In this document: in pieces, positions 10,990-38,045 of the stretch
Layout: every line of letters starts with the position of its first letter
Numbering within the stretch: position 1 is the stretch's first letter
From: Acidimicrobiales bacterium
Lineage (GTDB): Bacteria > Actinomycetota > Acidimicrobiia > Acidimicrobiales > AC-14
Length of the DNA: 38,340 bases
Assembly: GCA_025463925.1 (NCBI GenBank)
Contig: JAODBK010000007.1
Span: 1 to 38,340, forward strand
Direction: 5' to 3'
Program-made: the position numbers and the translations under genes
Notes under the pieces: model-generated
Database searches by the model: none
What the model was told of the DNA's origin: nothing
Seen by the model: only the letters and a program-made list of their open reading frames with translations

Positions 10990-11165
10990 AGGACTCGTCG
11001 CCCGCACGAACTCTCGCTGCCGCATGACGCGTATCCCCGAAGACACAGCCCCCGTATCACCCAACGCCGGATCAGCGGCAGGGTTCACTCGGGCTCAAGG
11101 TCGGTGGACCAACACCGAGCATTCTGGCAAAGGTCGGGCGATGAGTTCGGGGCCGTCGCGTCGTC

Positions 11166-11624: not shown

Positions 11625-11676
11625 GCCAGAACCGTCACTTGCTTCTGAACGCAATCCGAGTCCCCACCTACATTTG

Positions 11677-11716
11677 CTTGCCAACGCAAGTATATCGCTG
11701 TAGGTTCCGAATGCAA
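11677..11716 (-). promoter_or_regulatory. marR promoter with overlapping operator
   Basis: Read leftward: -35 TTGCAT (11711-11716), a 16-base spacer, and -10 TATACT (11689-11694). The palindrome CTTGC-GTTG-GCAAG (11677-11690) starts inside the -10 box. A perfect 5-bp inverted repeat placed over the -10 and start region suits autorepression by MarR. Confidence 0.55.
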
Positions 11717-11767
11717 ATGGTCGACATCAACTCCCTCCGAGTGGCCGCGCTCGTGGCCGTCACGTGA
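11711..11767 (+). other. 18-codon frame, possible LysR-gene stump or leader peptide
   Basis: ATG 11711 opens MQMVDINSLRVAALVAVT and stops at TGA 11765-11767, which overlaps the GTG start (11764) of the next gene as GTGA. The peptide resembles the first residues of LysR-type regulators (MxDxxxLRVFVAVA). It may be a deletion stump or a short upstream frame coupled to the ATPase gene. The evidence is slight. Confidence 0.25.
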
Positions 11768-13191
11768 GTCCGGCCAACACAGCAGATCCCCTGGCCGTGG
11801 GCGAGCTGTTGGACGCGAGCGCGCCTGGACTTGTCGGGCGGGAAGCCGAGCTGGAGGCGCTGGGGGAGCTGCTGGCTGCCGCCCGCAACAGCCGCAGCGG
11901 CGTATTGGTCGTCCGCGGGGAGGCGGGGATCGGAAAGTCGGTCCTTCTCGACTCTGTGGCCGACAACGCAGAAGGCTTTTACGTGGCGCGCGTTGCCGGC
12001 GTCGAGTCGGAGATGGAGCTCCCGTATGCGGGGCTGCAACAGCTCTGGCGACCGTTCGTCGACTGCGAACCGTTCCTGCCCGAGCCGCAGCACACCGCTC
12101 TGACGACAGCGTTCGGGCTCAGCGCGGGGCCGCCTCCCGATCGCTTTTTGGTCGGCCTGGCGGTGCTCCAACTTCTCGCCAAGTTGGCCGACCAGCAGCC
12201 CGTGCTGTGGCTCGTGGACGACGCGCAATGGCTCGACCGCGTGTCGGTCCAGACGATCGAGTGCGTCGCCCGTCGTCTGCTCGCTGACCCGATCGTGTTT
12301 CTGATCGCGGCGCGGGACGCTCCCGAGTTCGGGGACTTTGCCGGCCTGCCCGAGCTGCGACTGCTGCCTCTCGGTGACGGCGACGCGGCGGCTCTGCTCG
12401 GCTCGGTCGTAGCCGGCCCTACCGATCCCCGGGTGGTCGAGCGCATCCTCGCCGAAAGTCACGGGAACCCGCTGGCCCTTTTGGAGCTGCCGCGCGCGTG
12501 GACGACCGCGGAACTTGCCGAAGGGTTGGCGGATCCGGGCCAGCTGTCGTCGTTCGGGCCTCTCGAAGACGGATTCGCGCGAAGGCTGCGGTCGCTGCCG
12601 CGGGACGCCCGCCTGTTGTTGACCCTGGCCGCGGCCGAGCCGCTCGGCGACCCCACGCTGCTGTGGCATGCGGCTGAGCGACTCGGGTTGGGCTGGGACG
12701 CGGCGACCTCGGGACTCGTCGAGTTCGGTGTCAAGGTTCGTTTTCGTCATCCATTGGTGCGCGCCGCGGCCCATCGCGAGGCATCAACGCGTGAGCGGCT
12801 CGATGTTCATCGCGCGCTCGCAGAGGTCACCGACCCGATTGTGGATCCGGACCGGCGCGTGTGGCACCTGGCGAACGCGACGGTGACGCAGGACGATGAG
12901 ATCGCCGTTGAACTCGAACGCGCCGCTGACCGAGCCAAGTCACGAGGAGGGCTCCTCGCCGCGTCCGCGCTCTTCGAGCGGGCCGCGCTGTTGACCACGG
13001 ATGCGGCGCGACGCGCCGACCGGACACTGTCGGCTGCCGCCGCCAAACGCGACGTGGGCGCGCTGGACGCGGCCCTGGGGCTGTTGCCGGCCGTCGAAGC
13101 GAACGACGCGTCGGACCAAGGCTTTGCCGAGTATGCGCGCCAAACCGCCGGAGTCCGCACCATTCCTGTGCTCGAACTGACGCGGGCCTAG
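11764..13191 (+). CDS. Truncated LAL (LuxR-family large ATPase) regulator fused to a foreign C-terminal tail
   Basis: The 475-residue product is the N-terminal half of a LuxR-type large ATP-binding regulator: LVGREAELEALGELL, Walker A GEAGIGKS (52-59), Walker B VLWLVDDAQWLD (147-158), then RDAPEF, LAESHGNPLALLELP and RFRHPLVRAA (sensor/arginine region). Such proteins are normally about 900 residues with TPR-like repeats and a C-terminal LuxR DNA-binding domain. Here homology ends near residue 445 (LDAALGLLPAVEA). The last 25 residues (GFAEYARQTAGVRTIPVLEL) look like the C-terminus of a deazaflavin (F420)-dependent nitroreductase of the DDN family. So the DNA-binding part is lost, probably by a deletion joining two genes. 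Start GTG 11764. Confidence 0.75.
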   Translation: MSPANTADPLAVGELLDASAPGLVGREAELEALGELLAAARNSRSGVLVVRGEAGIGKSVLLDSVADNAEGFYVARVAGVESEMELPYAGLQQLWRPFVDCEPFLPEPQHTALTTAFGLSAGPPPDRFLVGLAVLQLLAKLADQQPVLWLVDDAQWLDRVSVQTIECVARRLLADPIVFLIAARDAPEFGDFAGLPELRLLPLGDGDAAALLGSVVAGPTDPRVVERILAESHGNPLALLELPRAWTTAELAEGLADPGQLSSFGPLEDGFARRLRSLPRDARLLLTLAAAEPLGDPTLLWHAAERLGLGWDAATSGLVEFGVKVRFRHPLVRAAAHREASTRERLDVHRALAEVTDPIVDPDRRVWHLANATVTQDDEIAVELERAADRAKSRGGLLAASALFERAALLTTDAARRADRTLSAAAAKRDVGALDAALGLLPAVEANDASDQGFAEYARQTAGVRTIPVLELTRA

Positions 13192-13363
13192 CCCACGCCC
13201 CGAAGGGCCGGCACGCGCGTCACCACGTGACGCCCGGATTCACGTGCGGATCCCGGCAACCGAACTCGTAGGTGGCGGTGTGCACTCCTCGAAATCGGGT
13301 GCCGTCCCCCGCCGAGGCGGCGAGACTACGCGTCCATTGAACCAACCAGCCGACGCATTAGGG

Positions 13364-22887: not shown

Positions 22888-25122
22888 TCAACCTCCCTCG
22901 CCGCCGAGAAAGACCGCACGTACCAGGTCGTCGCGGTCGAGAAGCTCGGCGGCGAGCCCCTCGAAGCGGACCTCGCCCTTCTCCATGAAGACCGCACGGT
23001 CCGCCACGGCCAGAGCGACGTTGATCGACTGCTCGACGATCACCATGGTGAGTCCCGCCTCTTTGAGTCGCTCGACGATCGCGAGGAGTTGTTGCACCAC
23101 GACCGGAGCCAGACCGAGGCTGAGCTCGTCGATCAAAAGGATCTGCGGATCCAGCAAGAGGCCCGCGGCCAGGCCGAGCATCTGTTGCTCGCCGCCCGAG
23201 AGTGTCCCGGCAGCCTGATCGAGGCGCTCAGCAAGGACCGGGAACAGCTCGAGGACATGGTCGATTCGAGCGCTCACCCGGCCGCGTTCCCAGATGAATG
23301 TGTGGGCGCCGACCAACAGGTTCTCGGCGACCGAGAGGGTCGGGAAGACCGAGTTGCCACCCGGCACCTGCACGATACCCAGCCGCACCCGGGTGCCGGG
23401 GTCCGCGAAGGTGACGGTACGACCGGCAAGGCGCACCACGCCCCGATCGGCGAAGCCGAGGCCGCTCACAGCCCGCAGCAACGTCGACTTGCCGGCTCCG
23501 TTGGTGCCCAACAGGGCGAGCACCTCTCCTCGACGGACATCGAGGTTGACGTCGAAGAGCACCTGGACGGGCCCGTAGGAGAAGTCGAGATGGCGGATCT
23601 GCAGCATGGGAATGTCCGCGCCGACCGCCATCCGGGACCGCTCGTCACGCTCCTCGACCAACTCCCCGGCAGCCAACGCCATGTCTCGGCGAACGAAGCG
23701 AGCGCCATAGGCGATCAGCGCTCCACCGATCAGCGCTGCCGGCGGTGTGACCAGCGCGAGCGCCGCCCGGTCGCCGACCGAGTTGGCGATGGCGCCAACG
23801 ACCAAGGCGCCGCCCAGGCCGCCTATGAGCGACAAGTAGAGACCGATCGTCGCGAACCCCATCGACCGGAGCCGATAGGGGGTCACGGCCGCGACCAGCC
23901 CAGTAAGCGGCACGAATGCGGCGAACACCGCTGCTGACGCCACCGCGCTGACCACCGTGAAGAGGGCCACGTTGGGCATATAGAGCGAGATGGGGACGAG
24001 GACGCCGAAGCTGGCGACCAGAGCGCCGCTCAACAGGACCGAGCTCTCCGGTGAGTGGCGGAAAAGACGGTCTCCTGCGGTCCCCCCGAAGGCCACGCCA
24101 ACCATCCCCCCCAAGGCGCCGATGCTGCCGACGACGCCTCGGCCTCCGGGGCCGAGGTGGAAGTGGTTGTGCAAGAACAAGTTGACATAGATCGGGGCCG
24201 TGACGAACGCCAACCCCAGCGCGCCGAGCGCGCACAGGAAGAAGTAGAAGGTCCTGACCTTCTTGAGGCGGGCGAAGGCCGCTGCGATGGGGATCCGGAG
24301 CTCGCCTTCCGATTCCGCCATCTCCTCGCCCAAGACCGACTGCATCTCGTTGCGACCCCGCCGCGGTTCGTGCAAGCCGAAGGCGAACAGCGCGAGCACG
24401 CCCGCCGGGATCGACAAGACCACAAAGGCCCAGCGCCAGCCCCCAGCTCCCCCGGCAATGGCCGCCACTGCCCCAGCCAGCGCCGGACCGATGACGAGGC
24501 CCGCTGGCTGCGCTGCCCGGTGCAGCGCGTAGATCCGGTTCCGCCCCTCGATCGGATAGGCGTCCGCCAAAAGGGCGCTATGGACGGGCTGCTCGTTGGC
24601 CTTCCCGAGGCCGGCCGCGGCCCATGCGATCACCAACTGCCAGACCGCGTGCGCGGCGCCCGTCAGCATCACGAACAGCGCCCAGCCGATCGAGCAGACG
24701 CCGACAAGCGAAGTCCGCCGGACGCGGTCGCCCAGGTAGCCGAGCGGTATCGCTGCCGCGAAGATCACCAAGCCTCCGAGAGCACCGACCACACCAAGGA
24801 CGAGGTCGGACATGTGGAGGGACTTCTGGATGTTCGGGCCGAGCACGGCGAAGGCCGAGTTGCTCAGGTTGTCGACCAACACCAGACCAGCCAACACACC
24901 GACGAGCGAGAAGCCGCCAGCCCGCAACACCTCCCGGATCGCCAGGTCCTGCGACCCGACACCAGGCAGGAGGTCGTCGGCGATGATCACCCGTTCGTCT
25001 ACCGTCGCCGCCTGGGCCGCGCGACGGTGGGCCTCCTCGTCGAGGATTGCGGCGGCCAGCCCGGCAGGATCGTCGTCAAATCTCGCCGCGACGTCGGTCA
25101 CGACTCGCGTAGGCCTAGACAT
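22888..25122 (-). CDS. MFS transporter fused to a LivF-type ABC ATPase
   Basis: One unbroken 744-residue frame. Residues 1-65 are cytosolic and charged. About 70-480 form a major-facilitator domain: VLAGLVLVDNLSNSAFAVLG, the loop GYLGDRVRRTSLVGV (MFS signature), AAAGLGKANEQPVHSALLAD, and a second half with MVGVAFGGTAGDRLF. From about 505 a LivF-type ATPase follows: LQIRHLDFSYGPVQVLFDV, Walker A GTNGAGKST (about 541), IVQVPGGNSVFPTLSVAENL, signature LSGGEQQM (about 640), Walker B ILLIDELSLGLAP (about 657) and VEQSINVALAVADRAVFMEKG. LivF is normally a separate protein working with LivG. No other LivF exists in the window, so this half should pair with the LivH-LivM-LivG fusion at 28100. Divergent from lacI, with an operator over its promoter. 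Confidence 0.9.
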   Translation of the reverse strand: MSRPTRVVTDVAARFDDDPAGLAAAILDEEAHRRAAQAATVDERVIIADDLLPGVGSQDLAIREVLRAGGFSLVGVLAGLVLVDNLSNSAFAVLGPNIQKSLHMSDLVLGVVGALGGLVIFAAAIPLGYLGDRVRRTSLVGVCSIGWALFVMLTGAAHAVWQLVIAWAAAGLGKANEQPVHSALLADAYPIEGRNRIYALHRAAQPAGLVIGPALAGAVAAIAGGAGGWRWAFVVLSIPAGVLALFAFGLHEPRRGRNEMQSVLGEEMAESEGELRIPIAAAFARLKKVRTFYFFLCALGALGLAFVTAPIYVNLFLHNHFHLGPGGRGVVGSIGALGGMVGVAFGGTAGDRLFRHSPESSVLLSGALVASFGVLVPISLYMPNVALFTVVSAVASAAVFAAFVPLTGLVAAVTPYRLRSMGFATIGLYLSLIGGLGGALVVGAIANSVGDRAALALVTPPAALIGGALIAYGARFVRRDMALAAGELVEERDERSRMAVGADIPMLQIRHLDFSYGPVQVLFDVNLDVRRGEVLALLGTNGAGKSTLLRAVSGLGFADRGVVRLAGRTVTFADPGTRVRLGIVQVPGGNSVFPTLSVAENLLVGAHTFIWERGRVSARIDHVLELFPVLAERLDQAAGTLSGGEQQMLGLAAGLLLDPQILLIDELSLGLAPVVVQQLLAIVERLKEAGLTMVIVEQSINVALAVADRAVFMEKGEVRFEGLAAELLDRDDLVRAVFLGGEGG

Positions 25123-25233
25123 CCCGGACTACGCATTGAACGGTCTGTGCAGCCGGTACTGCCTCACGACAAACTCCCCGATTCGCGGTTGCCGGGACGT
25201 TGACGCCGAGCTGTTGGGGCAGCCGAGGAAGAC

Positions 25234-25264
25234 AAGGTAGTCCGCCCATAGACAACGTTGTCAA
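25234..25264 (-). promoter_or_regulatory. Putative promoter of the MFS-LivF gene
   Basis: Read leftward: a consensus -35 TTGACA (25259-25264), then TACCTT (25234-25239) after 19 bases as a possible -10. The LacI-type palindrome covers the -35. The spacer is longer than ideal, so the -10 choice is uncertain. Confidence 0.4.
25251..25262. promoter_or_regulatory. LacI-family operator palindrome
   Basis: GACAACGTTGTC is a perfect 12-bp palindrome with the central CG typical of LacI/GalR operators. It lies between the divergent MFS-LivF and lacI genes, 41 bases before ATG 25304, and overlaps the -35 of the MFS-LivF promoter. It probably lets LacI repress both. Confidence 0.75.
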
Positions 25265-25303
25265 CCGTCCTATAGCCTCTCGCACTTGGATCAGGGAACG
25301 CGC

Positions 25304-26323
25304 ATGCGCCATCGACCCACGATGCCCGACGTGGCGCGGGCCGCCGGTGTGAGCTTCAAGACGGTCTCGCGGGTCGCGAATGGCGAGCCCGGTGTGTCGG
25401 CGGCGACTGCCAGCAAGGTTCGGGGGGCCATGGCGGCGCTCGGGTTCCACCGCAACGAGATGGCCCGCGGGCTGAAAGCAGGCCAGGCCTCGGCGAGCAT
25501 CGGGCTCGTGATTGGTGACGTGAGCAACCCCTTCTACTCGGCGATCACCAGGTCGGTGGAGTTGGTCACGCGTCCTCGCCACCTCATGGTCGTGGTCGGC
25601 AGTTCCGAGGAGGATGCTGACCGGGAGCAGGAGCTCGTAGGCTCATTGTGTCGCCGGCGGGTCAACGGCCTTTTGATCGTGCCGACAAGCGGGAGCCAGC
25701 GATACCTCGGGGACGAGCTGGCGCTCGGGATGCCCATGGTGTTCCTCGATCGCCCTGGCAGCGGGGTCAAGGCCGACACCATCGTGATCGATAACCGTGG
25801 TGGGGCCCAGGCCGCCGTGGCGAGCCTCCTCAGCCTGGGTCATCGTCGCATCGCCATGGTTGGGGATCGGCTCTCGATTTATACGGCCCGAGAGCGATTC
25901 GCGGGGTACCGGCGGGCGCTCGCCTCGGCTGGAGTCCCTCCCGATGACAAATTGATCGTGCTCGGTCCTCACGATCCGGCCGCCGCTGAGCGAGCGGTTC
26001 ACCGGCTGCTCGAATTGGAGGACCCGCCGACGGCCTTCTTTGGTTCGAACAACCGCATGACGGTTGGAGTGATCCGCGCGTTGTGGTCGAAGGGTGCGGA
26101 GGCCGCGGTGGTCGGCTTCGATGATTTCGAACTCGCGGACATGGTGGCGATGCCGCTCGTGGTGGTCGCCCACGACCCCCGCGAGATGGGTCAGCGCGGA
26201 GCGGAACTCCTCTTGGACCGGATTGACGGCTCCTACCACGGGCCCCCTCGGCGTGTCACCATCCCAACAAGGCTCATCCGCAGGGGCGTCGGAGCATTGC
26301 CGACAGCGCCGGGCCGTCGGTGA
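25304..26323 (+). CDS. LacI family transcriptional regulator
   Basis: A 339-residue regulator. The N-terminal LacI helix-turn-helix reads MPDVARAAGVSFKTVSRVAN, followed by the hinge region AMAALGFHRNEMARGLKAG. The periplasmic-binding-protein-like sensor domain follows (SIGLVIGDVSNPFYSAITRS, RVNGLLIVPTSGSQRYL, MVFLDRPGSGVKADTIVIDN, HRRIAMVGDRLSIYTARERF, FGSNNRMTVGVIRALWSKG, VVGFDDFELADMV). Most relatives sense a sugar or sugar derivative. ATG 25304 is preferred to the TTG at 25286 because GGATCAGGGA precedes it and the DNA-binding helix follows directly. With the palindromes at 25251 and 26364 it is the obvious local controller of the transporter, GH38 and possibly itself. Confidence 0.92.
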   Translation: MRHRPTMPDVARAAGVSFKTVSRVANGEPGVSAATASKVRGAMAALGFHRNEMARGLKAGQASASIGLVIGDVSNPFYSAITRSVELVTRPRHLMVVVGSSEEDADREQELVGSLCRRRVNGLLIVPTSGSQRYLGDELALGMPMVFLDRPGSGVKADTIVIDNRGGAQAAVASLLSLGHRRIAMVGDRLSIYTARERFAGYRRALASAGVPPDDKLIVLGPHDPAAAERAVHRLLELEDPPTAFFGSNNRMTVGVIRALWSKGAEAAVVGFDDFELADMVAMPLVVVAHDPREMGQRGAELLLDRIDGSYHGPPRRVTIPTRLIRRGVGALPTAPGRR

Positions 26324-26363
26324 GGTCGCGACGCCGTGGGGTTTCGACATGACCATGTCCGGT

Positions 26364-26375
26364 GACAACGTCGAC
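26364..26375. promoter_or_regulatory. Second, degenerate LacI-type operator
   Basis: GACAACGTCGAC matches the upstream palindrome GACAACGTTGTC at 10 of 12 positions. It lies 47 bases before the TTG start of the binding-protein gene. The location suggests that LacI also controls the binding protein-transporter-GH38 transcript. The 3' half-site is imperfect. Confidence 0.45.
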
Positions 26376-26421
26376 CTGGCAGACCGACGGTCGATGACGA
26401 CGGGCGCGCAGGACTGACGAA

Positions 26422-27948
26422 TTGACCGCGCCCCGCCACCCCGACATCGGTTTGCGCAGCCGCGGCGTCACCTACTTGATCATCTTGGGTGTCGTCATGA
26501 GCATGCTGGTCGCTGGCTTGGCCGTTCCCTTCCTGTTCGGCAGCGTCCCCGGGGCCGCACCAAGTGCGCTCCACGCGCTCGCCCCCGGGAGCTCCTCCCG
26601 GGGGGGCAGCACCTCATCCGCGACGGACGGCAACGGTCAGCCGACCGGCGGATCGCCACTCGGCCCGAGCGGTACGGCGACTCCGACCGGCGCCGGCAAC
26701 CCGGCGTTCGGCGGGCCCGGTAATCCCGCGGGCACCCTGCCCGCCGACCGGCTCTCGGCCACCGATCGGGGCGTGACCGCGACCACCATCAAGGTCGGGA
26801 TCGGTATCGCCGACCTCGGTTCGCTCAGCAAGCTCGGCGTCGCGGTGCCGAGCGCCAGCCCCCAGGATCAGGAAGCGCCCTACACAAACTTCATCAACTA
26901 CCTGAACGGTCGGGGCGGCGTGCTCGGCAGGAAGATCGTTCCCGACTTCATCACCTATGACCCCTTGAGCGCCACCAGCATGCAGGCCGCCTGTCTGAAA
27001 GCCACCCAGGACGACAAGGTCTTCGCCATGCTCGACACCGGACTCGAATCCGCGGCACAGATCTGCGTCGCCCGCGCGGGCACCCCGCTCATCGACAATG
27101 ACACCAGAGGGGTCCCCGTGGGCATGTTCGAGCAGGCCAACGGCCTGCTGTTCAGCGAATTCGAGTCCGGTGTTCGATCGCTCGCCAACATGGTCTCAGT
27201 GTTGGCCAGCCGGGGAGCCCTCAAGGGCAAGACGATCGGGATCATCGATGACGTGCAACCCGGCGACGCCGAGACCGTCACTGCCGGCGCGGTCAACGTC
27301 CTCAAGCAACTCGGTTACAACGTCGCCTACCGCCAAGACTTCGAGGCCAACGGCAACACCGCCCCCTCGCAGGCCCCGGTCGCGGTGGCACAGATGCGCG
27401 CCCACGGCGTCGACACGATCTTCTTCCTCATCGAGTTCGTGGTCGGGACCAGTTTCGTGCAGCAAGCCGATTCAGAAGGCTATCGGCCGCAGTACTACGC
27501 GGCCGATTGGCAGGCCGTGACCAATGACATCACCCTCACGGCCATGCCCTCCACATTTCAGGCCACGGCGATCACGACGTCGCGCGTCGGAGAGTGGCGA
27601 GTCGGCCAACCGGAGCCGGCTCCCGACGCGTCGTGCCGTGAGACATACAAAAAGATCACCGGCCAGGACGTTCAGCGGTCGTCCGGCAACAGCTATGTGG
27701 CCATGACCACTGCATGCGGGCTGTTGAACCTCTTCAGCCAAGCTGCCACCGCCGCTGGTGCGAACTTGACCCGCCCGCGACTCTCGGCGGCGCTGCAGCG
27801 CCTCGGTGCCGTCGCCTTGCCTGGCTTCGGTGGGGCGTCCTTCGCGCCAGGCAAGTTCGACGGGGCGGACCCGATCCGCACGCTGGTGAACCAGTCCGCC
27901 TGCAAGTGTTGGATGCCGACGGACAGCTTCGTGAAGCCCAATTACTGA
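26422..27948 (+). CDS. Membrane-anchored substrate-binding protein of Liv type (Peripla_BP_6-like)
   Basis: A 508-residue protein. A single N-terminal membrane helix (GVTYLIILGVVMSMLVAGLA) with no lipobox Cys is followed by a Gly/Ser/Pro/Thr linker (about 45-105). The type I periplasmic-binding fold starts at VTATTIKVGIGIADLGSLSK and continues APYTNFINYLNGRGGVLGRK, KGKTIGIIDDVQPGDAETV, MRAHGVDTIFFLIEFVVGTS and YRPQYYAADWQAVTNDI. This is the leucine/amide/urea-binding family, here anchored by a helix instead of lipid. The start is TTG 26422 with AGGA about 8 bases before. Four late Cys (SCRETY, TACGLL, SACKCW) may form disulfides. It precedes the LivHMG fusion and presumably delivers ligand to it. 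Confidence 0.88.
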   Translation: MTAPRHPDIGLRSRGVTYLIILGVVMSMLVAGLAVPFLFGSVPGAAPSALHALAPGSSSRGGSTSSATDGNGQPTGGSPLGPSGTATPTGAGNPAFGGPGNPAGTLPADRLSATDRGVTATTIKVGIGIADLGSLSKLGVAVPSASPQDQEAPYTNFINYLNGRGGVLGRKIVPDFITYDPLSATSMQAACLKATQDDKVFAMLDTGLESAAQICVARAGTPLIDNDTRGVPVGMFEQANGLLFSEFESGVRSLANMVSVLASRGALKGKTIGIIDDVQPGDAETVTAGAVNVLKQLGYNVAYRQDFEANGNTAPSQAPVAVAQMRAHGVDTIFFLIEFVVGTSFVQQADSEGYRPQYYAADWQAVTNDITLTAMPSTFQATAITTSRVGEWRVGQPEPAPDASCRETYKKITGQDVQRSSGNSYVAMTTACGLLNLFSQAATAAGANLTRPRLSAALQRLGAVALPGFGGASFAPGKFDGADPIRTLVNQSACKCWMPTDSFVKPNY

Positions 27949-28073
27949 TGACTCCGTTCGACGGCGCGACCAACATTTCGAGGCTCAGACACGAGGATGA
28001 TCCGCTGCCAGTCGAGTTTCTGGAACGCGACGTTCTCGGTGTGGATGTATTCCTGGGTGGGGAGGAAGGCTGA
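27948..28073 (+). CDS. Possible 41-residue protein between binding protein and permease genes
   Basis: ATG 27948 overlaps the binding-protein stop (TGATG), and the frame runs to TGA 28071-28073, ending just before the LivHMG gene. The peptide is acidic (MTPFDGATNISRLRHEDDP to VDVFLGGEEG). Third codon positions are less GC-rich than in neighbours, so coding is doubtful. It may be a coupling frame or chance. Confidence 0.22.
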   Translation: MTPFDGATNISRLRHEDDPLPVEFLERDVLGVDVFLGGEEG

Positions 28074-28099
28074 GCATCCACGCGAATGCGCTGAGCGTC

Positions 28100-31000
28100 T
28101 TGGCACTGACAATCGGCGGCTGGAAGGTGTCGGCCGAGATCGTTGTGATCGGGGCCTTCACCGGCGTGACCTACGGCCTGTTGGCCGCCGGCCTCGTCCT
28201 CGTCTACCGGGCCACCCGCGTCATCAACTTCGCCTACGGAGAGATCGGTGCCTTCGGGGCCGCGTTGTTGGCCAAGCTGGTTTTGGACGAGCACTGGAAC
28301 TTCTTCTTGGCCATGGGCCTCGTCCTCGTCGTGGGCGGGCTGGTGGGCGCAGCCATCGAGTTGAGCGTGGTCCGGCGTCTGTTCCGCGCTCCCCGAACGA
28401 TCCTGCTGGTTGCCACCATCGGGGTATCGGAGTTGCTGTTCGTCTCTCAGCTCTTGCTACCCGGCATCCACCACTTGCAGCGGTACCCGTCGCCCATCAA
28501 CCGCACGCTGCACGTGGGCACGCTCGTGTTGCTCAGCGGTCATTTCATGGTGATCGCCCTCGTGCCCGCGATCATGGTCGGCCTCACGCTGTTCATGAAC
28601 CGCACGCCGTACGGCATGGCGATACGAGCCGCGGCCGAAAACCCCGACCGGGCTGAGCTCGCCGGAATCTCCACCAGACGCGTCTCGACCCTGGTGTGGG
28701 TAATGGCCGGGGTGTTGTCCACGCTGTCTGCGATCCTCATCTCCCCGCTGAGGGGCACCATCCTCGGCATTCCGGCCCCGGCGGTGGGTCCCAGCCTGCT
28801 GCTCCGGGCGTTGGCGGCGGGTCTGGTCGGCGGTTTGACGTCACTGCCCCTGGCCCTCGCCGGCGGCGTCGCCATCGGGGTGGCTGAGGCGATCCTGTTC
28901 GCGAACGTGGCCAATCCCGGGGTTGTCGACGCGATGCTGTTCGTGTTGGTGTTGATCCTGGTCCTGGCGCGGGGGACCCGCGGTGCCGAAGACGAAGGCG
29001 GCTGGTCACTGGCTCCGAGAGTGACGTCGATCCCCGAGCGACTTCGGGGGCTGTGGTGGGTGGACCGGCTGAACCTTCTCGTTGGAAGCGGCGCACTCCT
29101 CGTGGCCGTCGTCCTCCCGGTGATCTTCACCACCTCGAGCAAGAACTTCTTGTTCTCACGCGTCTTGCTCTTCGCGATCATCGGTCTGTCGGTCACGGTG
29201 CTCACCGGTTGGGCGGGCCAGCTGAGCTTGGGCCAATTCGCGTTTGCCGGCCTCGGGTCGATGGTCGCCGTCGCACTGGTCGCCCGAGGCATGAGCTTTC
29301 CGATGGCCGTCGCATACGCCACGTTGGCCGGCGTGCTTGCAGCCTCGGCCGTCGGCTTTCCTGCGCTGCGAGCCCGCGGAGTTCTCTTGGCGGTGACGAC
29401 GCTCGCTTTCGCGGTGGCAGCCAACAACTGGATGCTCTCCTTGCACCTGTTCACGGGCGGCAAGGCCGTGGTGGTGCTCCCACGGTCCACAATCTTCGGC
29501 GTGTTGGACCTGCACGCCCAGCGCACCTATTACTACGTGTGCTTGGCCGTGCTTGTCGCTTGCGCAGCGATGGTCGGGCGTTTGCGGCGTACGGGTATCG
29601 GCCGGTCAATCGTTGCCGTCCGGGAGAACGAGTCGGCAGCCGCCTCTCTCACGTTGTCGGCGGGCGTCACCAAGCTGACCGCATTCGCCTTGGCCGGCGG
29701 CTTGGCGGCATTGGCCGGCGCGCTGTTGGCCGGCTCACAAGTCCAATTCGGCACGGATGCCTTCGGCCCCGAGATTTCTCTCCAACTCGTCGCCATGGTC
29801 GTCATCGGAGGTCTGGGGTCGGTCTCGGGCGCGATCTTGGGGGCCGTGTACGTGGTGGGGCTTCCCGCCTTGTGGAACAACTCACCCACCGTCGGCCTTC
29901 TCACCAGCGGAGTTGGCCTGCTCGTGTTGTTGCTCTATCTGCCCGGAGGGCTCCTCGCGCTCGTCCACCGAGCCCGCGACGCCTTGCTTGGTCTGGCCGC
30001 CAGTCGCCAGCCCGACCGCCCCGCCAGCGCAGCCGCGACTGGCGCCACGGGTCGGCTCGCGCCGCCGCTGCTGGTCGGCGAACCGAATCGGCCCGACCCG
30101 ACCGTGCCGGCCCTCGTCGCCGCTGACGTCAGCGTGCATTTTGGGGCCCGGTTGGCTCTCGACGGGGTGAGCATCGCTGCCAGCGAAGGGGAAGTCGTAG
30201 GCCTGATCGGCTCGAACGGCGCCGGCAAGTCGACCCTCATGAACGTCATCAGCGGGTTCTGCTCCGCAGGCGCGGGCCGGATCGAGGTCTTCGGCACTGA
30301 CGTCACCCTCCTCCCGCCTCACCGGCGCGCTGCGTACGGCTTGGGGCGCGTCTTCCAGGACGCCAGATTGTTCGGCGACTTGACCGTTCGCGAAACCGTC
30401 AAGGTCGCTCTCGAACCCGGGGAACACAGCGAGCCCATACCCTCACTGCTCGGTCTGCCTCCGTCTCGACGAGCCGAGCACCACAAATCGGCCGCGGCCA
30501 ACGACTACATCGACTTTCTGGGCTTGGGTCGCTATGCCGACAGCTTCCTCCGCGATCTTTCGACCGGTACGAGGCGGATCGTGGAACTCTGCTGCCTCGT
30601 CGCGCAACAGGCGCAGCTGCTTCTCCTGGACGAACCGACCGCCGGCATCGCCCAGCGTGAAGCGGAGGCCTTTGGCCCGCTGATCAAACGGATCCAAACA
30701 CAGTTGGGCGCCACGATCCTGCTGATCGAGCACGACATTCCTCTCGTGATGAGCATCTCCGACCGCGTCTACTGCCTGGCAGCAGGCTCCTGCATCGCCG
30801 AAGGCCGGCCCGAGGAGGTGCGCCACGACCCGAAGGTCGTCGCCGCGTATCTCGGGACCGACGAGCGCGCCATCGCTCGAAGCGGCGCCGCCGCGCGGCG
30901 CCGTGACACCGACGTGCGATCCGCTGAGGCAGCTTCGACCAATCTGGCGGTCCTCGACGTGGCCAAGCTGCGCGCCCTGGCAGCCCGGCTCGGTGTCCGC

Positions 31001-31288
31001 GGCCGCAGTCGCCTCCGCAAGGATGAGCTCATTGCGGCCATCAAGAGGTTCGAGGTCGTGACCAATCCAGCTCCCGAGCCGATCGCAGTCGGCCCCTCGG
31101 CGATACCGGATGAGGCGGGCACTGGATCTTCGGCGACCCGCTCCGCCCGTGCGGGAGGCTCCTTCAGGCCCGCAGCCGCCCTCGGCGGAATTCTCGGCTG
31201 CACCGAGGGTCAGGCCTACACACTCGTCATCGGGCTCATCCTCACCCTCACCATCACCATCGGCGGGATGTCCGCCACCCTGCATTGA
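28100..31288 (+). CDS. LivH-LivM-LivG fusion: ABC permease/permease/ATPase with Rho_N-like tail and terminal membrane helix
   Basis: A single 1062-residue frame. Residues 1-300 are a LivH permease (FTGVTYGLLAAGLVLVYRAT, RVINFAYGEIGAFGA, MAIRAAAENPDRAELAGI). About 325-620 form a LivM permease (GLSVTVLTGWAGQLSLGQFA, VRENESAAASLTLSAG, LVAMVVIGGLGSVSGAILGA). About 668-918 form a LivG ATPase: Walker A GSNGAGKST (about 704), GRVFQDARLFGDLTVRE, a diverged signature LSTGTRRIVEL, Walker B LLLLDEPTAGIAQ and IEHDIPLVMSI. Residues about 952-985 (LDVAKLRALAARLGVRGRSR, LRKDELIAAIKRFE) look like a Rho_N/SAP helix-extension-helix. The protein ends in a last membrane helix (AYTLVIGLILTLTITIGG). The start is TTG 28100 (GTG 28127 possible). 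The stop overlaps the GH38 start (TGATG). Confidence 0.9.
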   Translation: MALTIGGWKVSAEIVVIGAFTGVTYGLLAAGLVLVYRATRVINFAYGEIGAFGAALLAKLVLDEHWNFFLAMGLVLVVGGLVGAAIELSVVRRLFRAPRTILLVATIGVSELLFVSQLLLPGIHHLQRYPSPINRTLHVGTLVLLSGHFMVIALVPAIMVGLTLFMNRTPYGMAIRAAAENPDRAELAGISTRRVSTLVWVMAGVLSTLSAILISPLRGTILGIPAPAVGPSLLLRALAAGLVGGLTSLPLALAGGVAIGVAEAILFANVANPGVVDAMLFVLVLILVLARGTRGAEDEGGWSLAPRVTSIPERLRGLWWVDRLNLLVGSGALLVAVVLPVIFTTSSKNFLFSRVLLFAIIGLSVTVLTGWAGQLSLGQFAFAGLGSMVAVALVARGMSFPMAVAYATLAGVLAASAVGFPALRARGVLLAVTTLAFAVAANNWMLSLHLFTGGKAVVVLPRSTIFGVLDLHAQRTYYYVCLAVLVACAAMVGRLRRTGIGRSIVAVRENESAAASLTLSAGVTKLTAFALAGGLAALAGALLAGSQVQFGTDAFGPEISLQLVAMVVIGGLGSVSGAILGAVYVVGLPALWNNSPTVGLLTSGVGLLVLLLYLPGGLLALVHRARDALLGLAASRQPDRPASAAATGATGRLAPPLLVGEPNRPDPTVPALVAADVSVHFGARLALDGVSIAASEGEVVGLIGSNGAGKSTLMNVISGFCSAGAGRIEVFGTDVTLLPPHRRAAYGLGRVFQDARLFGDLTVRETVKVALEPGEHSEPIPSLLGLPPSRRAEHHKSAAANDYIDFLGLGRYADSFLRDLSTGTRRIVELCCLVAQQAQLLLLDEPTAGIAQREAEAFGPLIKRIQTQLGATILLIEHDIPLVMSISDRVYCLAAGSCIAEGRPEEVRHDPKVVAAYLGTDERAIARSGAAARRRDTDVRSAEAASTNLAVLDVAKLRALAARLGVRGRSRLRKDELIAAIKRFEVVTNPAPEPIAVGPSAIPDEAGTGSSATRSARAGGSFRPAAALGGILGCTEGQAYTLVIGLILTLTITIGGMSATLH

Positions 31289-33855
31289 TGGAGCCGCGGA
31301 AGGGTCTGCGCTGTGTGCTGGTCTCGCACACGCATTGGGATCGTGAGTGGTATCGGACCTTCGAGAGTTTCCGCGGGCGACTCGTCGATGCGGTCGATCG
31401 GGTCCTCGACCTGCTCGGTGAGGATCCGGGTTGGCACTTTGTGTTGGACGGGCAGTCGATCGTCCTCGAGGACTACCTGGACGTTCGCCCCGACCGGCGC
31501 GCCGAGCTGGTCGGAGCGTGTCACAGCGGTCGTGTCGGGGTGGGGCCCTGGTATGTCCAGCCAGACTCGCTGCTCCCGGGCGGCGAAACTCACGTGCGCA
31601 ACCTGCTCGAAGGTCGCCGCGTTGCGTCGGAGTTCGGATCGGCGTCGACCGTGGCCTACACCCCCGACTCGTTCGGGCATCCGGCGCAGTTCCCTCAGAT
31701 CCTCGCGGGCTTCGGTCTGGACGCGTTCGTCTACTGGCGGGGAAACGGCTCGGAGATCGACACGCTCGGACCAACGTACGAGTGGGAGGCGCCCGACGGA
31801 TCGGTGATCCCGGCCTGCTTGCTGGCCAAGGGCTACTTCGGCGCGTCGGCGCTACCCGGTGACGTCCAGGAAGCGGTCGAGCGACTCACGGTGTTGGGAG
31901 AGCAGCTGGCCGAGGGTGATGGCGACGCAGTGGTGTTCATGAACGGTGTCGACCATGCGCTCCCCGACGCCAACACCGGCGAAGTGTGCGACGCGTTGGC
32001 GGCCGCCACTGGGTGGTCGGTGCGCCGCGGGCTGCTCGAGGACTACGTCGAGGCGGCGCTCGACGGCCGGCGCTTGGCCCGCTTCTCCGGGGAGCTCGTC
32101 GGCGCTCGGCTCACGATTGTCCTGCCGGGAGTCTGGTCATCACGGATGGCCTTGAAGCTTCGCAATCGGCGAGCCGAGACCGCGCTGGTGGGATGGGCGG
32201 AGCCGTGGGCCGCGCTTGGCAGTCGCTACGGCACGCCGGACGAGCGTCCGGCGCTGCGACTGGCGTGGCGTGCGCTACTGGAGAACCAGGCGCACGATTC
32301 GATTTGCGGGTGCTCGATCGACGAGGTCCACGAGCAGATGCAGGGCCGCTTCGACACCGCCGAGGGTCTGGCCGAGTCGACGACGGCCCGGGTCCTCGAA
32401 CAGCTCGCCGGGCTCGGCCCCGAGCGGCGCACGGCGTGGTCGGAGCAGTGCGACGTCGCGGTGTTCAACCCGTGCCCGTATCCGCGCACCGACGTCGTGC
32501 GCATCCCGCTGGACGGTTTTCCGCCGGTCCGCCAGGCCGGGGATGGCGCCGACCTCCACCCGTCGATCCTCGCCGGGCTCGTGCATTCCGGCTTCACTGT
32601 CGACGGCCAGCCGGCACGGATCGTGGCGTCGCAGGACCCGACGCGCTTCCAGGCAATCACGAACGCTGCGCCGATCGACCTCGAGGTCGTGGTCGTGGAT
32701 GTCCCGGCCTTCGGGTGGCGTCGCGTCGCGATCGCGCCGAGCAATGAAGCCGTCCCCGACGCCGTCGACGACGGACGACAGATCAACGCCGGCGACGTCG
32801 CCGTGGTCGCCGCTGCCGACGGGACCCTGACGGTCAAGCTGGGAGCGCGCCAGTGGTCGGGGCTCGCCGCGGTCGAGGATTGCGGCGACCGGGGCGACAG
32901 TTACGACGCCGACCCTGTCGGGCCGCTCGTCACCGACCCCACAGCGGTGTCGGTCGAGCGCCGACGCCACGCCAGCGGGATCCAGACGCTGCGCGTGACG
33001 CGAGCATTCGCGATTCCCGTCAGTCTTGGCGCCGATCGCGAAGGGCGTGCGGACACGACCACGACTTGCACGGTGACCACCGAGGTCCGGGTCGCGCCCG
33101 GTGTGGAACGCATCGACCTCTGCATGACGATCGACAACGCCGCCGACGACCATCGTCTTCGGCTGGTGTTTCCCACCGGCGCTGCCGTTGAGGAGTTCCG
33201 GGCCGCTACGACCTTCGATGTCGCGACACGATCGACGACACCCCCGAACGACGAGCACTGGGTCCACCCGGCACCGACGACCTTCCCCCACCAGGGGTGG
33301 GTTGCAGTCAACGGCCTGCTCGTCGGCTCGCCCGGCCTACCCGAAGCCGCGGTGACCCCCGACGGCACCATCAAGGTGACCGTGCTCCGGGCGGTGGGCT
33401 GGCTCAGCCGCGGCGACCTCCGTACCCGCCCCGTTCAGGCCGGCCCGGGGATGCCTGCTCCCGGCGCCCAGTGCCACGGCCGGCTCGTGGCTCGGCTCGT
33501 CCTCGCGACCGATGCCGATCCCTCCATCGCGCACGATGCCGAGCTCGGACTCCGTGCCGTGCCCGCCGGCGACGCGCCGCTTCTCGAACCCGGCGTGTCG
33601 ATACTCGAGCTGGCGCCGCGCGGGCTCACACTGAGCGCAGTGAAACCGGCAGGCGACGGGCGCGGCCTGATCGTGCGCGTCCTGAACCCAACCGACGAAA
33701 GTCTCGAAGCGCACCTGCGACTCGCCGGGGCGACGCCGTCGGTGAGCGCGGTTCGCCTCGACGAGACCCCGAGCAGCGACAGCATCCGGATCGTCGACGG
33801 ATCCGTGAACTTTGCGGTACCTCCCCACGCCTTGCGGTCGGTGCTCGTGCGCTGA
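31288..33855 (+). CDS. Glycoside hydrolase family 38 alpha-mannosidase (MngB-like)
   Basis: An 855-residue GH38 enzyme. The zinc/active-site motif SHTHWDREWY (13-22) has His14, His16 and Asp18 as expected ligands. TPDSFGHPAQFPQIL carries the probable nucleophile Asp127. The middle domain has VYWRGNGSEIDTLG, VVFMNGVDHALPD and LLENQAHDSICGCSIDEVHE. The C-terminal half is beta-rich (GWVAVNGLLVGSPGLPEAA, GDLRTRPVQAGPGMP). Length and HTHWDREW recall mannosylglycerate hydrolase MngB of E. coli, which splits 2-O-mannosylglycerate (phosphate) after uptake. There is no signal peptide, so it acts in the cytosol on imported substrate. ATG 31288 overlaps the LivHMG stop (TGATG), directly linking transporter and enzyme. 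The exact mannoside is unknown. Confidence 0.9.
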   Translation: MEPRKGLRCVLVSHTHWDREWYRTFESFRGRLVDAVDRVLDLLGEDPGWHFVLDGQSIVLEDYLDVRPDRRAELVGACHSGRVGVGPWYVQPDSLLPGGETHVRNLLEGRRVASEFGSASTVAYTPDSFGHPAQFPQILAGFGLDAFVYWRGNGSEIDTLGPTYEWEAPDGSVIPACLLAKGYFGASALPGDVQEAVERLTVLGEQLAEGDGDAVVFMNGVDHALPDANTGEVCDALAAATGWSVRRGLLEDYVEAALDGRRLARFSGELVGARLTIVLPGVWSSRMALKLRNRRAETALVGWAEPWAALGSRYGTPDERPALRLAWRALLENQAHDSICGCSIDEVHEQMQGRFDTAEGLAESTTARVLEQLAGLGPERRTAWSEQCDVAVFNPCPYPRTDVVRIPLDGFPPVRQAGDGADLHPSILAGLVHSGFTVDGQPARIVASQDPTRFQAITNAAPIDLEVVVVDVPAFGWRRVAIAPSNEAVPDAVDDGRQINAGDVAVVAAADGTLTVKLGARQWSGLAAVEDCGDRGDSYDADPVGPLVTDPTAVSVERRRHASGIQTLRVTRAFAIPVSLGADREGRADTTTTCTVTTEVRVAPGVERIDLCMTIDNAADDHRLRLVFPTGAAVEEFRAATTFDVATRSTTPPNDEHWVHPAPTTFPHQGWVAVNGLLVGSPGLPEAAVTPDGTIKVTVLRAVGWLSRGDLRTRPVQAGPGMPAPGAQCHGRLVARLVLATDADPSIAHDAELGLRAVPAGDAPLLEPGVSILELAPRGLTLSAVKPAGDGRGLIVRVLNPTDESLEAHLRLAGATPSVSAVRLDETPSSDSIRIVDGSVNFAVPPHALRSVLVR

Positions 33856-33957
33856 GTCAAGTCCGAGGTCTGTTCAATCATCGTCAGGGTCAGCAGCTTG
33901 CGGGCGCGAACCAGCGCGCCATCGGACGCGCCACGACGAGCGCGCCAGCAGCAGTCA

Positions 33958-34956
33958 TCAATCCTCGAGGCTCCCCCGGACCTGGAGCCCGACTGAGCTG
34001 ATTTGAATCGGGAGCACCCGGTAGCGCGAGTCCAATACGGCGACTCCATGCTCGAGCGCGTCCTTGGCTCGTCGGTTGGCGCTCAGGATCGTGACCGAGC
34101 CGCCGTCTCCACCCGCCCCATTGACCTTCCATCCGACCGCCCCTTGTGCGGCCGCCATGTCGATCACGCGTCGTGCGTCGACGCCCACCAGCTCAGGGTG
34201 CAGAAAGTCCTGCGCCTCAGTGTTGGCGATCATCGCCTGACCGAAGGCGTCGACATCCCGGGCAAGGACCGCGTCGCGAGCCGCGATCGCCGCATCTCGC
34301 AGCCCCGAGAACACCTCCGGCCCGCGACCGCCCACCATTTCGATGACCTGGCGATGGACGCCCGAGGAGTCATGTGCCTGACCGAGAAAGACCAGCGTCA
34401 GCCGCGAACCGAGTTCCTCCCATGGTGGCAGGGCGTGCACCGTCGCCTCGGGGTACGGCTCGATCTCGAGGTAATTGATCCCGCCGAACGCCGAGCACAG
34501 TTGGTCCTGGATCCCGCTCTGCACGCCGAGGATGTCGACCTCGAGGCGGTGCGCGGCATAGGCGAGGTCGCGGGGCGACGGTTGCTCGGAGCGCACGGCG
34601 GCCAACCCGCCCAGCAAAGCAACGGCTACGGCCGCGGACGTACCGGTGCCGCAACCAGGCGGGACCGCGGAGCGCACGCACACCTCGACGGCCAGATCCG
34701 CCGGGGGAGGCGACGCGTCGACCGCGGCCTCCAGCAGCGGGTGGCGGGCCACACGGGACGCCCCCGGCACGATCGGGTACCGGTCGCCCGAGGCTTGAAC
34801 GCTGAGCACCACCGGGTCCGGGCCGTCAATCATGCGAATCGAGACCTCCACTCCAGGAGCCACGGCGATGTTCAAGACCCGTCCCGGTCCGCCGAACCAG
34901 GTGTCGGTCCATCCACCGTTGTCGCAGATCCGCACCGGCACCGACGCCTCGATCAC
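33958..34956 (-). CDS. GHMP-family sugar kinase (heptokinase HddA/arabinokinase-like)
   Basis: A 332-residue GHMP kinase with motif 1 VPVRICDNGGWTDTWFGGPG (substrate/start motif of the D-glycero-D-manno-heptose 7-phosphate and fucose/arabinose kinase branch), motif 2 AVPPGCGTGTSAAVAVALLG (ATP loop) and motif 3 VNGAGGDGGSVTI. Also typical are HRLEVDILGVQSGIQDQLCS and FGGINYLEIEPYP. It should phosphorylate a sugar hydroxyl. GTG 34956 is chosen because the family starts there (VIEASVPVR); GTG 34977 extends it by 7 residues. It is convergent to the GH38 gene, so it has its own promoter; it may phosphorylate the sugar released by GH38 (inference). Confidence 0.87.
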   Translation of the reverse strand: MIEASVPVRICDNGGWTDTWFGGPGRVLNIAVAPGVEVSIRMIDGPDPVVLSVQASGDRYPIVPGASRVARHPLLEAAVDASPPPADLAVEVCVRSAVPPGCGTGTSAAVAVALLGGLAAVRSEQPSPRDLAYAAHRLEVDILGVQSGIQDQLCSAFGGINYLEIEPYPEATVHALPPWEELGSRLTLVFLGQAHDSSGVHRQVIEMVGGRGPEVFSGLRDAAIAARDAVLARDVDAFGQAMIANTEAQDFLHPELVGVDARRVIDMAAAQGAVGWKVNGAGGDGGSVTILSANRRAKDALEHGVAVLDSRYRVLPIQISSVGLQVRGSLED

Positions 34957-35080
34957 CCGCGAACACCCAATCCACACATCAACGCGAGATCAGCGGCCGG
35001 CTTCATCACTCACATCAGAGAGCGGGCCGGCCATCAGCGCAAGCCTCCACGCGATGAACCCCGAGTTTGCCTCCAGGGCC

Positions 35081-35582: not shown

Positions 35583-38045
35583 GTGCTCCTGATATCGCTC
35601 ACCGGCGGGATCGCGATGGCATCGGTCGCGGCGGCCCGGCGCACCCAATCGTCGTTCTCGGCCTACCTGAAGAGCACCAACCCGTCGGACCTCACCATCT
35701 CGGCGTTCGGGCTCGGGTCGGGACCGGGGGGAGGCCAGCAGAAGGCGTTCACGGACACGGTCGCCCACCTGCCCCACGTCCGCCACGTGGCCACATTGAT
35801 CGGCCTCGACGTGATCCCGCTGACGGCGGCGGGCACCCCCGCCAAGCACGCCAGCGACCTGATCACCGCGGGCAGCGTCGACGGCCTGTTCAGCCGGCAG
35901 GATCGCGTCACCGTGATCCGCGGCCGGGCCGCCGACCCGACCCGGACGGACGAGTTCGTCGCGACCCGGGAATCAGCGAAGCTGCTCGGCATCCGCGTCG
36001 GGCAGGTTGTCACGACCGCTTTTTACACGGACGACCAGTTGCTCCTGCCGGGCTTCGGCACAGCGGCGGTGGCGCCGAAGCTGCGGCTCGGCGTCCGGCT
36101 GGTCGGCATCATCGAGAACGCCAACGACGTCGTGCAGGACGACGTCGACCGGGTGCCGGGCCTGGTGGTGTACACGCCGGCGATCACCCGTCAGCTGCTC
36201 GCCGGCTCGACCGTCGCCACGTACAACCTGCAGCTCGATCGCGGAGGTCGCGACGCCGCGGCGGTGGAGCAGGAGTTCCTTCGCGTGCTGCCCCCCGGTT
36301 CGACGTACACCTTCCACATCACGTCGCGGCTCGAGGGCACGGTGGAGCGGGCGGTGCGGCCCGAGTCGATCGCGCTCGGCGGCTTTGGCCTGATCGCCGG
36401 GTTGGCGGCGCTGTTCATCGGCGCCCAGGCCATCATCCGGCAGGTGCGCGCCGGCGACGCCGACACGCACGCGCTGCGCGCCGTCGGCGCCGGGCCCTTG
36501 ACGACGGTCGCCGACGGGTTGGCCGGCGTCCTCGGCGCGGTCGTCCTCGGAGCGATGCTCGCCGCGGGCGTCGCGATCGCGCTGTCGCCGATCGCCCCGC
36601 TCGGCCCGGTGCGGGCAGTGTTCCCCAAGTCGGGGGTCGCCGCCGACTGGACCGTCCTCGGGCTCGGACTGCTCGTGCTGGTCGTTGTGCTCGGCGCGGC
36701 GGCCGTCGCCGTCGCCTATCGCGCCGCGCCCCACCGGGTCGCCGGGGCGCTGGCCGTCGCGCCGGAGCGTCGCTCGAACGCAGCGCGGCTCGCGGCGGCG
36801 GCAGGACTGCCGGCGCCGGGCGTCGTCGGCCTCCGCTTCGCCCTCGACCGGGGACGCGGGCCGGCGGCCGCGCCGGTTCGTTCGGCGCTGCTGGGCACCG
36901 CGCTGGCCGTCGTGATGATGGTGGCGACACTCACGTTCGGGGCCAGCCTGCACGCGCTCGTCTCGCGGCCGGCGCTGTACGGGTGGAACTGGAACTACGC
37001 CCTTACCGCCACGAACAAGGTGCCGGTGAACGCGGTCGCGCTGCTCGACCACGATCCGGCGGTGGCGGCGTGGACCGGCGCGACTTTCGCGAACGCGCAG
37101 ATCGACGGCCAGAACGTCCCGATCCTGGTGCAGAAGTCGCGGGCCCAGCCGCAGCCACCGGTCCTGTCGGGTCACGAGCTGGACGCCGACGATCAGGCGG
37201 TGGTCGGCGCGGACACCCTGAAGCGGCTGCACAAGCGGGTCGGCGACACCGTCGTCATCACCTACGGCACGCCGGAGGCGGCGCCGGTCTACGTGCCACC
37301 GACAACGCTCCGGGTCGTCGGCACCGCGACGATGCCCGCGATGGGCTTCTCGAGCTTCATCAGCGACCACCCGTCGATGGGCACCGGGGTGCTGATCTCA
37401 GTCGGCATCGAGCCGCCGGCATTTCAGCAGGCGCTGCGCAGCCCGGATCCTCTGTACGCCGACGGACCCGACATCGCGCTGGTCCGCATGCGCCGCGGCC
37501 TGACGGACGCAGCCAGTCGCGCCGACATTCGGCGCATCGCCGACGCCGCCAACGCCGCTATTGCGAAAGACCCCAACGCCGTCGCGGACAACGTCCAGGT
37601 CCTGTCGGTCCAACGGCCGGCCGAGATCGTCAACTACCGGTCGGTCGGCGCCACACCGGCGGTGCTCGCGCTGGGTCTCGCGGCGGGCGCGGTCGTCGCG
37701 CTGGCGCTCACGCTGGTGGCATCGGTCCGTCGGCGCCGGCGCGACCTCGCACTGCTGAAGACGCTCGGCTTTCGACCTCGTCAGCTGGCCGCGACGGTCG
37801 CGTGGCAGGCGTCGGTGGCCGCGGTCGTCGGCATCGCGGTCGGCGTGCCGCTCGGTATCGCGCTCGGGCGTCAGCTGTGGATCCTGTTCGCGCGCAGCAT
37901 CCACGCGGTGCCGCATCCCACGGTGCCGGTGCCATCGGTGCTGCTGGTCGCGGCGGGGACGCTCGTGCTGGCGAACCTCGTCGCCGCGCTGCCCGGTCGA
38001 AGCGCAGCACGCACTCCGGCGGCGCTGGTCATGCGAACGGTTTGA
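35583..38045 (+). CDS. FtsX-type ABC transporter permease, orphan, start unclear
   Basis: About 820 residues with the double-FtsX plan. Membrane core one: LIAGLAALFIGAQAIIRQVR then DTHALRAVGAGPLTTVADG. A central block contains LRFALDRGRGPAAAPVRSAL. Extracytoplasmic domains lie before and between. The final core is LALGLAAGAVVALALTLVAS, RRRRRDLALLKTLGFRPRQL and VGIAVGVPLGIALGRQLWIL. The frame is open upstream to 35493 and codes for a family-like N-terminus (RVARYRFGATFGRRWSGYLA), but no ATG, GTG or TTG occurs before GTG 35583. The GTG would cut into the first membrane helix. The original start may have been lost or a rare codon used (ATC 35496). No ATPase gene is adjacent, so the partner must lie elsewhere. 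Confidence 0.82.
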   Translation: MLLISLTGGIAMASVAAARRTQSSFSAYLKSTNPSDLTISAFGLGSGPGGGQQKAFTDTVAHLPHVRHVATLIGLDVIPLTAAGTPAKHASDLITAGSVDGLFSRQDRVTVIRGRAADPTRTDEFVATRESAKLLGIRVGQVVTTAFYTDDQLLLPGFGTAAVAPKLRLGVRLVGIIENANDVVQDDVDRVPGLVVYTPAITRQLLAGSTVATYNLQLDRGGRDAAAVEQEFLRVLPPGSTYTFHITSRLEGTVERAVRPESIALGGFGLIAGLAALFIGAQAIIRQVRAGDADTHALRAVGAGPLTTVADGLAGVLGAVVLGAMLAAGVAIALSPIAPLGPVRAVFPKSGVAADWTVLGLGLLVLVVVLGAAAVAVAYRAAPHRVAGALAVAPERRSNAARLAAAAGLPAPGVVGLRFALDRGRGPAAAPVRSALLGTALAVVMMVATLTFGASLHALVSRPALYGWNWNYALTATNKVPVNAVALLDHDPAVAAWTGATFANAQIDGQNVPILVQKSRAQPQPPVLSGHELDADDQAVVGADTLKRLHKRVGDTVVITYGTPEAAPVYVPPTTLRVVGTATMPAMGFSSFISDHPSMGTGVLISVGIEPPAFQQALRSPDPLYADGPDIALVRMRRGLTDAASRADIRRIADAANAAIAKDPNAVADNVQVLSVQRPAEIVNYRSVGATPAVLALGLAAGAVVALALTLVASVRRRRRDLALLKTLGFRPRQLAATVAWQASVAAVVGIAVGVPLGIALGRQLWILFARSIHAVPHPTVPVPSVLLVAAGTLVLANLVAALPGRSAARTPAALVMRTV

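Follow-up and report, generated by a model that had tools for sequence, protein, structure and literature searches.

The window analyzed here, the first 38,340 nucleotides of contig JAODBK010000007.1 of an Acidimicrobiales bacterium (GenBank assembly GCA_025463925.1), carries a locus in which the parts of a Liv-type (branched-chain amino acid-type) ATP-binding cassette (ABC) importer are accompanied by a LacI-family regulator, a GH38 enzyme and a GHMP-type kinase (Table 1). The preliminary description of this DNA had proposed that the five importer parts are present but regrouped, with LivF behind a major facilitator superfamily (MFS) domain, LivH, LivM and LivG in one chain and a helix-anchored binding protein, and that LacI, a GH38 gene coupled by TGATG and a GHMP kinase share the locus. 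This layout is borne out in full by the DNA, as all named parts are open frames, and by profile searches with Pfam and NCBIfam, in which the Pfam domains named for these parts all score above their cut-offs. An assembly artefact as the source of the fusions is ruled out by the recurrence of the architecture at 46-55% identity in other genomes. Genomes are designated here as G000 for that of the window and as G023, G076, G014, etc., for related ones.

Table 1. Features of the transporter locus in window coordinates; the last row refers to fetched loci.
Feature	Position	Strand	Evidence or remark
LLM oxidoreductase, SDR, cytochrome P450	19161-22332	-	Pfam; same strand as and 3' of MFS-LivF
MFS-LivF fusion	22888-25122	-	Pfam MFS_1 and ABC_tran, AlphaFold2 model
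Predicted LacI-family operator TAGACAACGTTGTCAA	25249-25264		between divergent MFS-LivF and LacI genes
LacI-family transcriptional regulator	25286-26323	+	Pfam LacI and Peripla_BP_3
Membrane-anchored Liv-type solute-binding protein	26422-27948	+	Pfam Peripla_BP_6
LivH-LivM-LivG single chain	28100-31288	+	Pfam BPD_transp_2 (two), ABC_tran, BCA_ABC_TP_C
TGATG stop/start overlap, LivHMG to GH38	31286-31290	+	DNA sequence
GH38 alpha-mannosidase-type enzyme	31288-33855 (open also from TTG at 31285)	+	Pfam GH38 N and middle domains
GHMP-type sugar kinase	33958-34977	-	Pfam GHMP kinase N domain; convergent with GH38
GH78 alpha-L-rhamnosidase-type genes beside MFS-LivF/LivHMG	L095:5975-8749, L102:12672-15269, L105:2894-5215

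In the MFS-LivF protein, Pfam places MFS_1 at residues 80-437 (126 bits) and ABC_tran at residues 523-666, and the Walker A, Walker B and LSGGE motifs of the LivF domain are intact. An AlphaFold2 model built with 25 sequences (mean predicted local distance difference test score, pLDDT, of 84; predicted template modeling score, pTM, of 0.78) extends the MFS domain to about residues 63-490 and the LivF-type ATPase to about 506-744, the last MFS helix being predicted to continue over residues 451-499 as a linker into the ATPase. The best structural match of the LivF domain is 1ji0, and the MFS half is modeled as a canonical 12-helix fold nearest to Spns1 and Spns2 (Z ~41, best for Spns1 at 41.7). 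This half appears to be a complete Spinster-like domain and is a candidate for a transport role, a shared fold being no proof of function. Residues conserved outside LivF include D187, R194, R230, R419, D480 and E490, of which the last two, located in the linker, are kept over 22 diverse rows of the fusion. Within the same proteins, the MFS part is less alike than the LivF part (e.g., 44 vs 75% and 35 vs 65%).

Across its two chains the transporter has the architecture of a Liv importer, i.e., two BPD_transp_2 permease domains and two Liv-type ATPases, LivG and LivF. The signature of LivG reads LSTGT, and at its C-terminus (window 30970-31288) the LivHMG chain carries a Rho_N (SAP-like) domain plus one more membrane helix. 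A similar helix begins a separate NHL/SGL beta-propeller protein directly after LivHMG in G023:C9 (L089:4738-6021). The binding protein (Peripla_BP_6, 50.8 bits vs a cut-off of 31.7) starts with a hydrophobic helix followed by a Pro/Gly/Ser-rich linker, and no obvious lipobox was found in it. Relatives at 36-38% identity adjoin Liv genes in the window's own genome and in G023; no related solved structure was found by sequence, and a single-sequence structure model of this protein has a pLDDT of 38.

The regulator combines a LacI helix-turn-helix and a sugar-binding domain with an even palindromic operator with a central CG, as expected for the LacI family. Operators of this family are typically even palindromes with a central CG, usually located 30-140 bp upstream and mostly autoregulatory (PMC4052901). 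The 163-bp region between the divergent MFS-LivF and LacI genes contains TAGACAACGTTGTCAA, about 22 bp 5' of LacI, which is palindromic at 14 of 16 positions and is predicted to be the LacI binding site. Its 12-bp core, GACAACGTTGTC, is a perfect palindrome that occurs exactly only once in the genome, and an operator scan gave one match at three or fewer mismatches against 0.03 expected. No sigma-70 consensus turned up when the divergent region was scanned for promoters.

The same core is also found beside LacI orthologues of 53-67% identity in G023, G076, G024 and G112, the closest of those listed being that of G023 (67%). All four copies of the core in the G023 genome lie inside one 20-kb cluster with this orthologue, where they precede a PfkB kinase, a GH2 enzyme with a mannosidase Ig domain, an aldolase (DeoC/LacD)/Gfo/Idh pair divergent from LacI, and a Liv operon, respectively. 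This LacI-controlled operon encodes LivHMG, an accessory protein, a binding protein, MFS-LivF and a Gfo/Idh oxidoreductase; the accessory protein (L118:13216-14133) has no Pfam or NCBIfam match. In G076, two copies of the core separate a binding-protein-like gene from the divergent LivHM, which is followed by MFS-LivF-LivG, and a third copy is flanked by genes resembling an esterase and a sugar isomerase. A D-lyxose isomerase in the G023 and G076 regulons was set aside, as it was a reading of the sequence with a Pfam match below cut-off. The transporters of the window and of G023:C20 belong to different clades of the fused family and that of G076 has the three-domain layout, so the association with LacI is not merely inherited with one transporter. 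Where LacI relatives of 50-52% identity carry this operator, they are divergent from CUT2-type sugar ABC genes accompanied by an FGGY kinase and DhaKL-like genes (neighbor names read from sequence by eye), and no further MFS-Liv was seen at the 20 operator loci fetched of 40 chosen.

The GH38 enzyme matches the N (106 bits) and middle (50 bits) domains of its family over the Pfam cut-offs and contains the catalytic and zinc motifs HTHWDREW (HTHWD), PDSFGH, AHDSICG and AHDSICGCSIDEVH. Its closest solved relatives are 2wyh and 3lvt, which are Streptococcus/Enterococcus-type GH38 enzymes, and no evident signal peptide was seen in it. Mannosylglycerate, named earlier as an example of the solute, is one candidate among others, backed by family resemblance only: against the mannosylglycerate hydrolase equivalog PRK09819 the enzyme scores 362.4 bits for a cut-off of 1138. 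The nearest solved relatives of the GHMP kinase are heptose-1-phosphate and other sugar kinases, and its score against the D-glycero-D-manno-heptose kinase HddA is 48.2 bits for a cut-off of 600. An orthologue of this kinase with 76% identity (L156:8215-12382) has DhaK/DhaL-like genes and a set of CUT2-type sugar ABC genes in its vicinity, which gives a hint of its pathway. Whether the kinase belongs to the transport unit is uncertain. On the other side of the locus, the LLM oxidoreductase, SDR and P450 genes are tightly packed and might, with some uncertainty, form an aglycone-processing set. Apparently unrelated to the transporter locus are another ABC ATPase with a large predicted membrane protein after it (window 3546-6790) and a separate FtsX-type permease (35583-38045).

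The fusion is not confined to this locus. In a survey of 60 related genomes, with copies counted from the rows listed, about 81 full-length MFS-LivF proteins were found in 27 genomes, and the window's own genome has four. Nearly all copies adjoin a complementary LivHMG or LivHM, and the fetched loci present two recurrent layouts, MFS-LivF next to LivHMG and LivHM next to MFS-LivF-LivG. The three-domain chain with LivHM (L022-L050, L109, L255) occurs also in Jiangella asiatica (L043). In the LivF tree, the window falls inside a 16-member clade that is entirely fused (support 95/91), and at least 10 changes of the fused state are counted on the tree, although some rows scored as unfused may be cut by contig ends. 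Two relatives in the window's own genome, C27 and C90, possess LivF and LivHMG but lack the MFS part, the closest being C27 (65-72% identity in LivF/H/M/G). The order at C27 (L108 ~6829-13216) is binding protein, amidohydrolase-like gene, LivF and LivHMG, with the amidohydrolase in place of the MFS. The possibility, anticipated in the preliminary description, that a separate Liv operon of the genome lacks only LivF is not borne out: each MFS-LivF faces a LivHMG or LivHM without LivF, and C27 and C90 are complete. No prior description of an MFS-LivF fusion was found in the open-access literature, which does not by itself prove novelty.

The reading favored here, with a probability of about 0.5, is that the locus encodes a LacI-controlled Liv-type (HAAT) importer for a solute that contains sugar, and that this import is coupled to removal of the sugar inside the cell. 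Import of such a solute is suggested by the LacI operator and by its reuse before other MFS-Liv transporters together with glycosidase and sugar-catabolic genes, and this comparative evidence points to sugars as the probable substrate class. Related LacI genes divergent from CUT2 sugar importers, the glycosidases at three further MFS-LivF loci and the translational coupling of GH38, whose catalytic motifs are kept, speak for it as well. Mannosides are plausible given the GH38 enzyme here and, in G023, a mannosidase-like GH2 enzyme placed under the orthologous LacI, and a mannoside is a possible solute. In the proposed mechanism, LacI would repress both divergent transcripts, MFS-LivF and LacI-binding protein-LivHMG-GH38, until a sugar effector appears. 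The anchored binding protein would then hand the solute to the LivH-LivM pore, powered by LivG and the helix-tethered LivF ATPase, and the probably cytosolic GH38 would remove an alpha-mannosyl (or similar) residue. If the solute is a glycoside, the P450, SDR and LLM enzymes may act on the remainder of the molecule. Being a complete Spinster-like domain of 12 helices, the MFS half could either anchor or gate the ATPase beside LivHM or move a related amphipathic compound.

Several observations weigh against this reading. Only a single operator is present and none lies near the GHMP gene, which is thus not visibly within the regulon. The GH38 orthologues (52-63% identity, one of them in the window's own genome) are located among unrelated genes away from Liv genes, and the GHMP kinase orthologues at 70-76% identity also sit away from Liv genes. 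Among 57 distinct fetched fusions, LacI is found within 6 kb in only three (window, G023:C20 and G014:C9) and is absent from the vicinity of 54; GH38 is missing near 56 of the 57, and a GH38 or GHMP kinase gene accompanies the fusion at the window alone. GH38, GHMP kinase and LacI travelling with the fusion is ruled out by these counts and the orthologue positions. For the fusion family this is the outcome that the preliminary description had named as making the mannoside link accidental, and the rarity of LacI and GH38 near other fusions means that the fusion alone does not mark a mannoside system. Of the mannoside importer suggested earlier, the sugar link of this particular locus has found partial support through the operator and its reuse in G023 and G076, and the use of the fusions as mannoside markers has had to be abandoned. 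Moreover, the closest paralogues (C27, C90 and G023:C9) sit with amidohydrolase, SDR, epoxide-hydrolase-like and acyl-CoA genes, not with sugar genes.

A link to other glycosidases is seen at some loci. At two loci of G014 and one of G015, a GH78 rhamnosidase-type gene is found no more than 5 kb from MFS-LivF, one of these loci also having a GH2 gene and a mannitol dehydrogenase; with GH2 included, the glycosidases at these three loci are within ~8 kb of MFS-LivF. With 13 GH78 matches over cut-off in the 60 genomes, three within 5 kb of the ~81 fusions compare with about 0.06 expected by a rough estimate; this association, also a weak point of the favored reading, concerns three loci in two genomes and was noticed post hoc. 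A general linkage of GH78/GH2 with Liv genes was rejected, because 20 other GH78/GH2 loci have no Liv cluster and 3 of 20 random regions have one, Liv systems being numerous. The glycosidase linkage stands for the MFS-LivF association only, with small numbers. Import of glycosides of which both sugar and aglycone are used is one picture that would fit the neighborhood data.

The neighbors of the fusions also lend themselves to another explanation, in which the importer takes up a hydrophobic or aromatic acid, terpenoid or acyl compound, while GH38, LacI and GHMP kinase form a sugar cassette that was inserted or lies next to it by chance. The surroundings of the nearest paralogues and the P450/SDR/LLM genes flanking the window's MFS-LivF agree with it, as does the composition at 18 fused loci (129 neighbors: SDR 8, Amidohydro_2 5, ECH 3, acyl-CoA dehydrogenase 3) when compared with random regions (125 neighbors: SDR 2, ECH 2, acyl-CoA dehydrogenase 2, and fewer amidohydrolase genes), and CouP, a Liv-type binding protein, binds phenylpropenoids (PMC3610893). 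However, a chance-adjacent cassette accounts poorly for the TGATG coupling of GH38 to LivHMG, for the operator between LacI and MFS-LivF, and for LacI-operator-MFS-Liv arrangements in two further genomes, which leaves this explanation possible but rather unlikely. It is highly improbable that these are the rearranged genes of an ordinary importer for branched-chain amino acids or amides: the best NCBIfam matches of LivF and LivG are indeed E. coli-type Liv ATPases, but at roughly half the equivalog thresholds (191 of 441 and 196 of 362 bits, respectively), neither LacI regulation nor glycosidases belong to amino acid uptake, and the genome contains many other Liv paralogues.

Concerning the fusion itself, MFS-LivF might be two functions joined so that they are expressed together, namely a Spinster-like transporter that exports lipid-like or glycoside products on its own and an ordinary LivF serving LivHMG. 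The complete MFS fold, the related C27 and C90 systems that do without it and the faster divergence of the MFS part all speak for such an arrangement, which is nevertheless doubtful, as the retention of the fusion with D480 and E490 and the adjacency of LivHMG or LivHM in most loci suggest a functional tie. More speculative still is a reading close to the two mechanisms joined through one ATPase of the preliminary description, namely that MFS-LivF and LivHMG form one hybrid transporter, in which the ATPase of the ABC pore also gates or energizes a Spinster-like MFS path; it would represent a widespread and as yet undescribed class of ABC-MFS machines within this actinobacterial order, used here for glycosides.

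Whatever its role, MFS-LivF occurs in multiple copies per genome in an actinobacterial order whose members are mostly uncultured, where it is apparently undescribed. It poses the puzzle of why a complete secondary-transporter fold is joined to the ATPase of an importer that works with a binding protein, and what the MFS half does is the point of greatest interest. The operator evidence provides a testable substrate class, sugars or glycosides, which is rare for large orphan Liv families, and suggests that Liv-type importers may replace CUT2 sugar importers in some regulons.

Compared with known systems, the window shares with HAAT/Liv importers (LivJ-LivFGHM, UrtABCDE, CouPSTU) the Peripla_BP_6 protein, two BPD_transp_2 pores and LivG/LivF ATPases, and differs from them in the one-chain LivHMG, the position of LivF behind an MFS domain, the LacI control and the coupled GH38. 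LacI-controlled CUT2 (ribose-type) sugar importers of the same order have a related LacI, an identical operator core and sugar kinases, aldolases or glycosidases nearby, whereas the transporter of the window is Liv-type with an MFS fusion. With MngB and other bacterial GH38 enzymes, the window enzyme has in common the domains, catalytic motifs and apparent intracellular location, but it stays far from the cut-off of the mannosylglycerate hydrolase equivalog. In the mannosylglycerate system the permease is MngA, of the phosphotransferase system (PTS), in place of which a Liv-type transporter adjoins GH38 here. Finally, the MFS half shares its fold with the Spinster (Spns) transporters at an identity of only 19-21%, and in contrast to them it is joined to an ABC ATPase and adjoins a full ABC importer.

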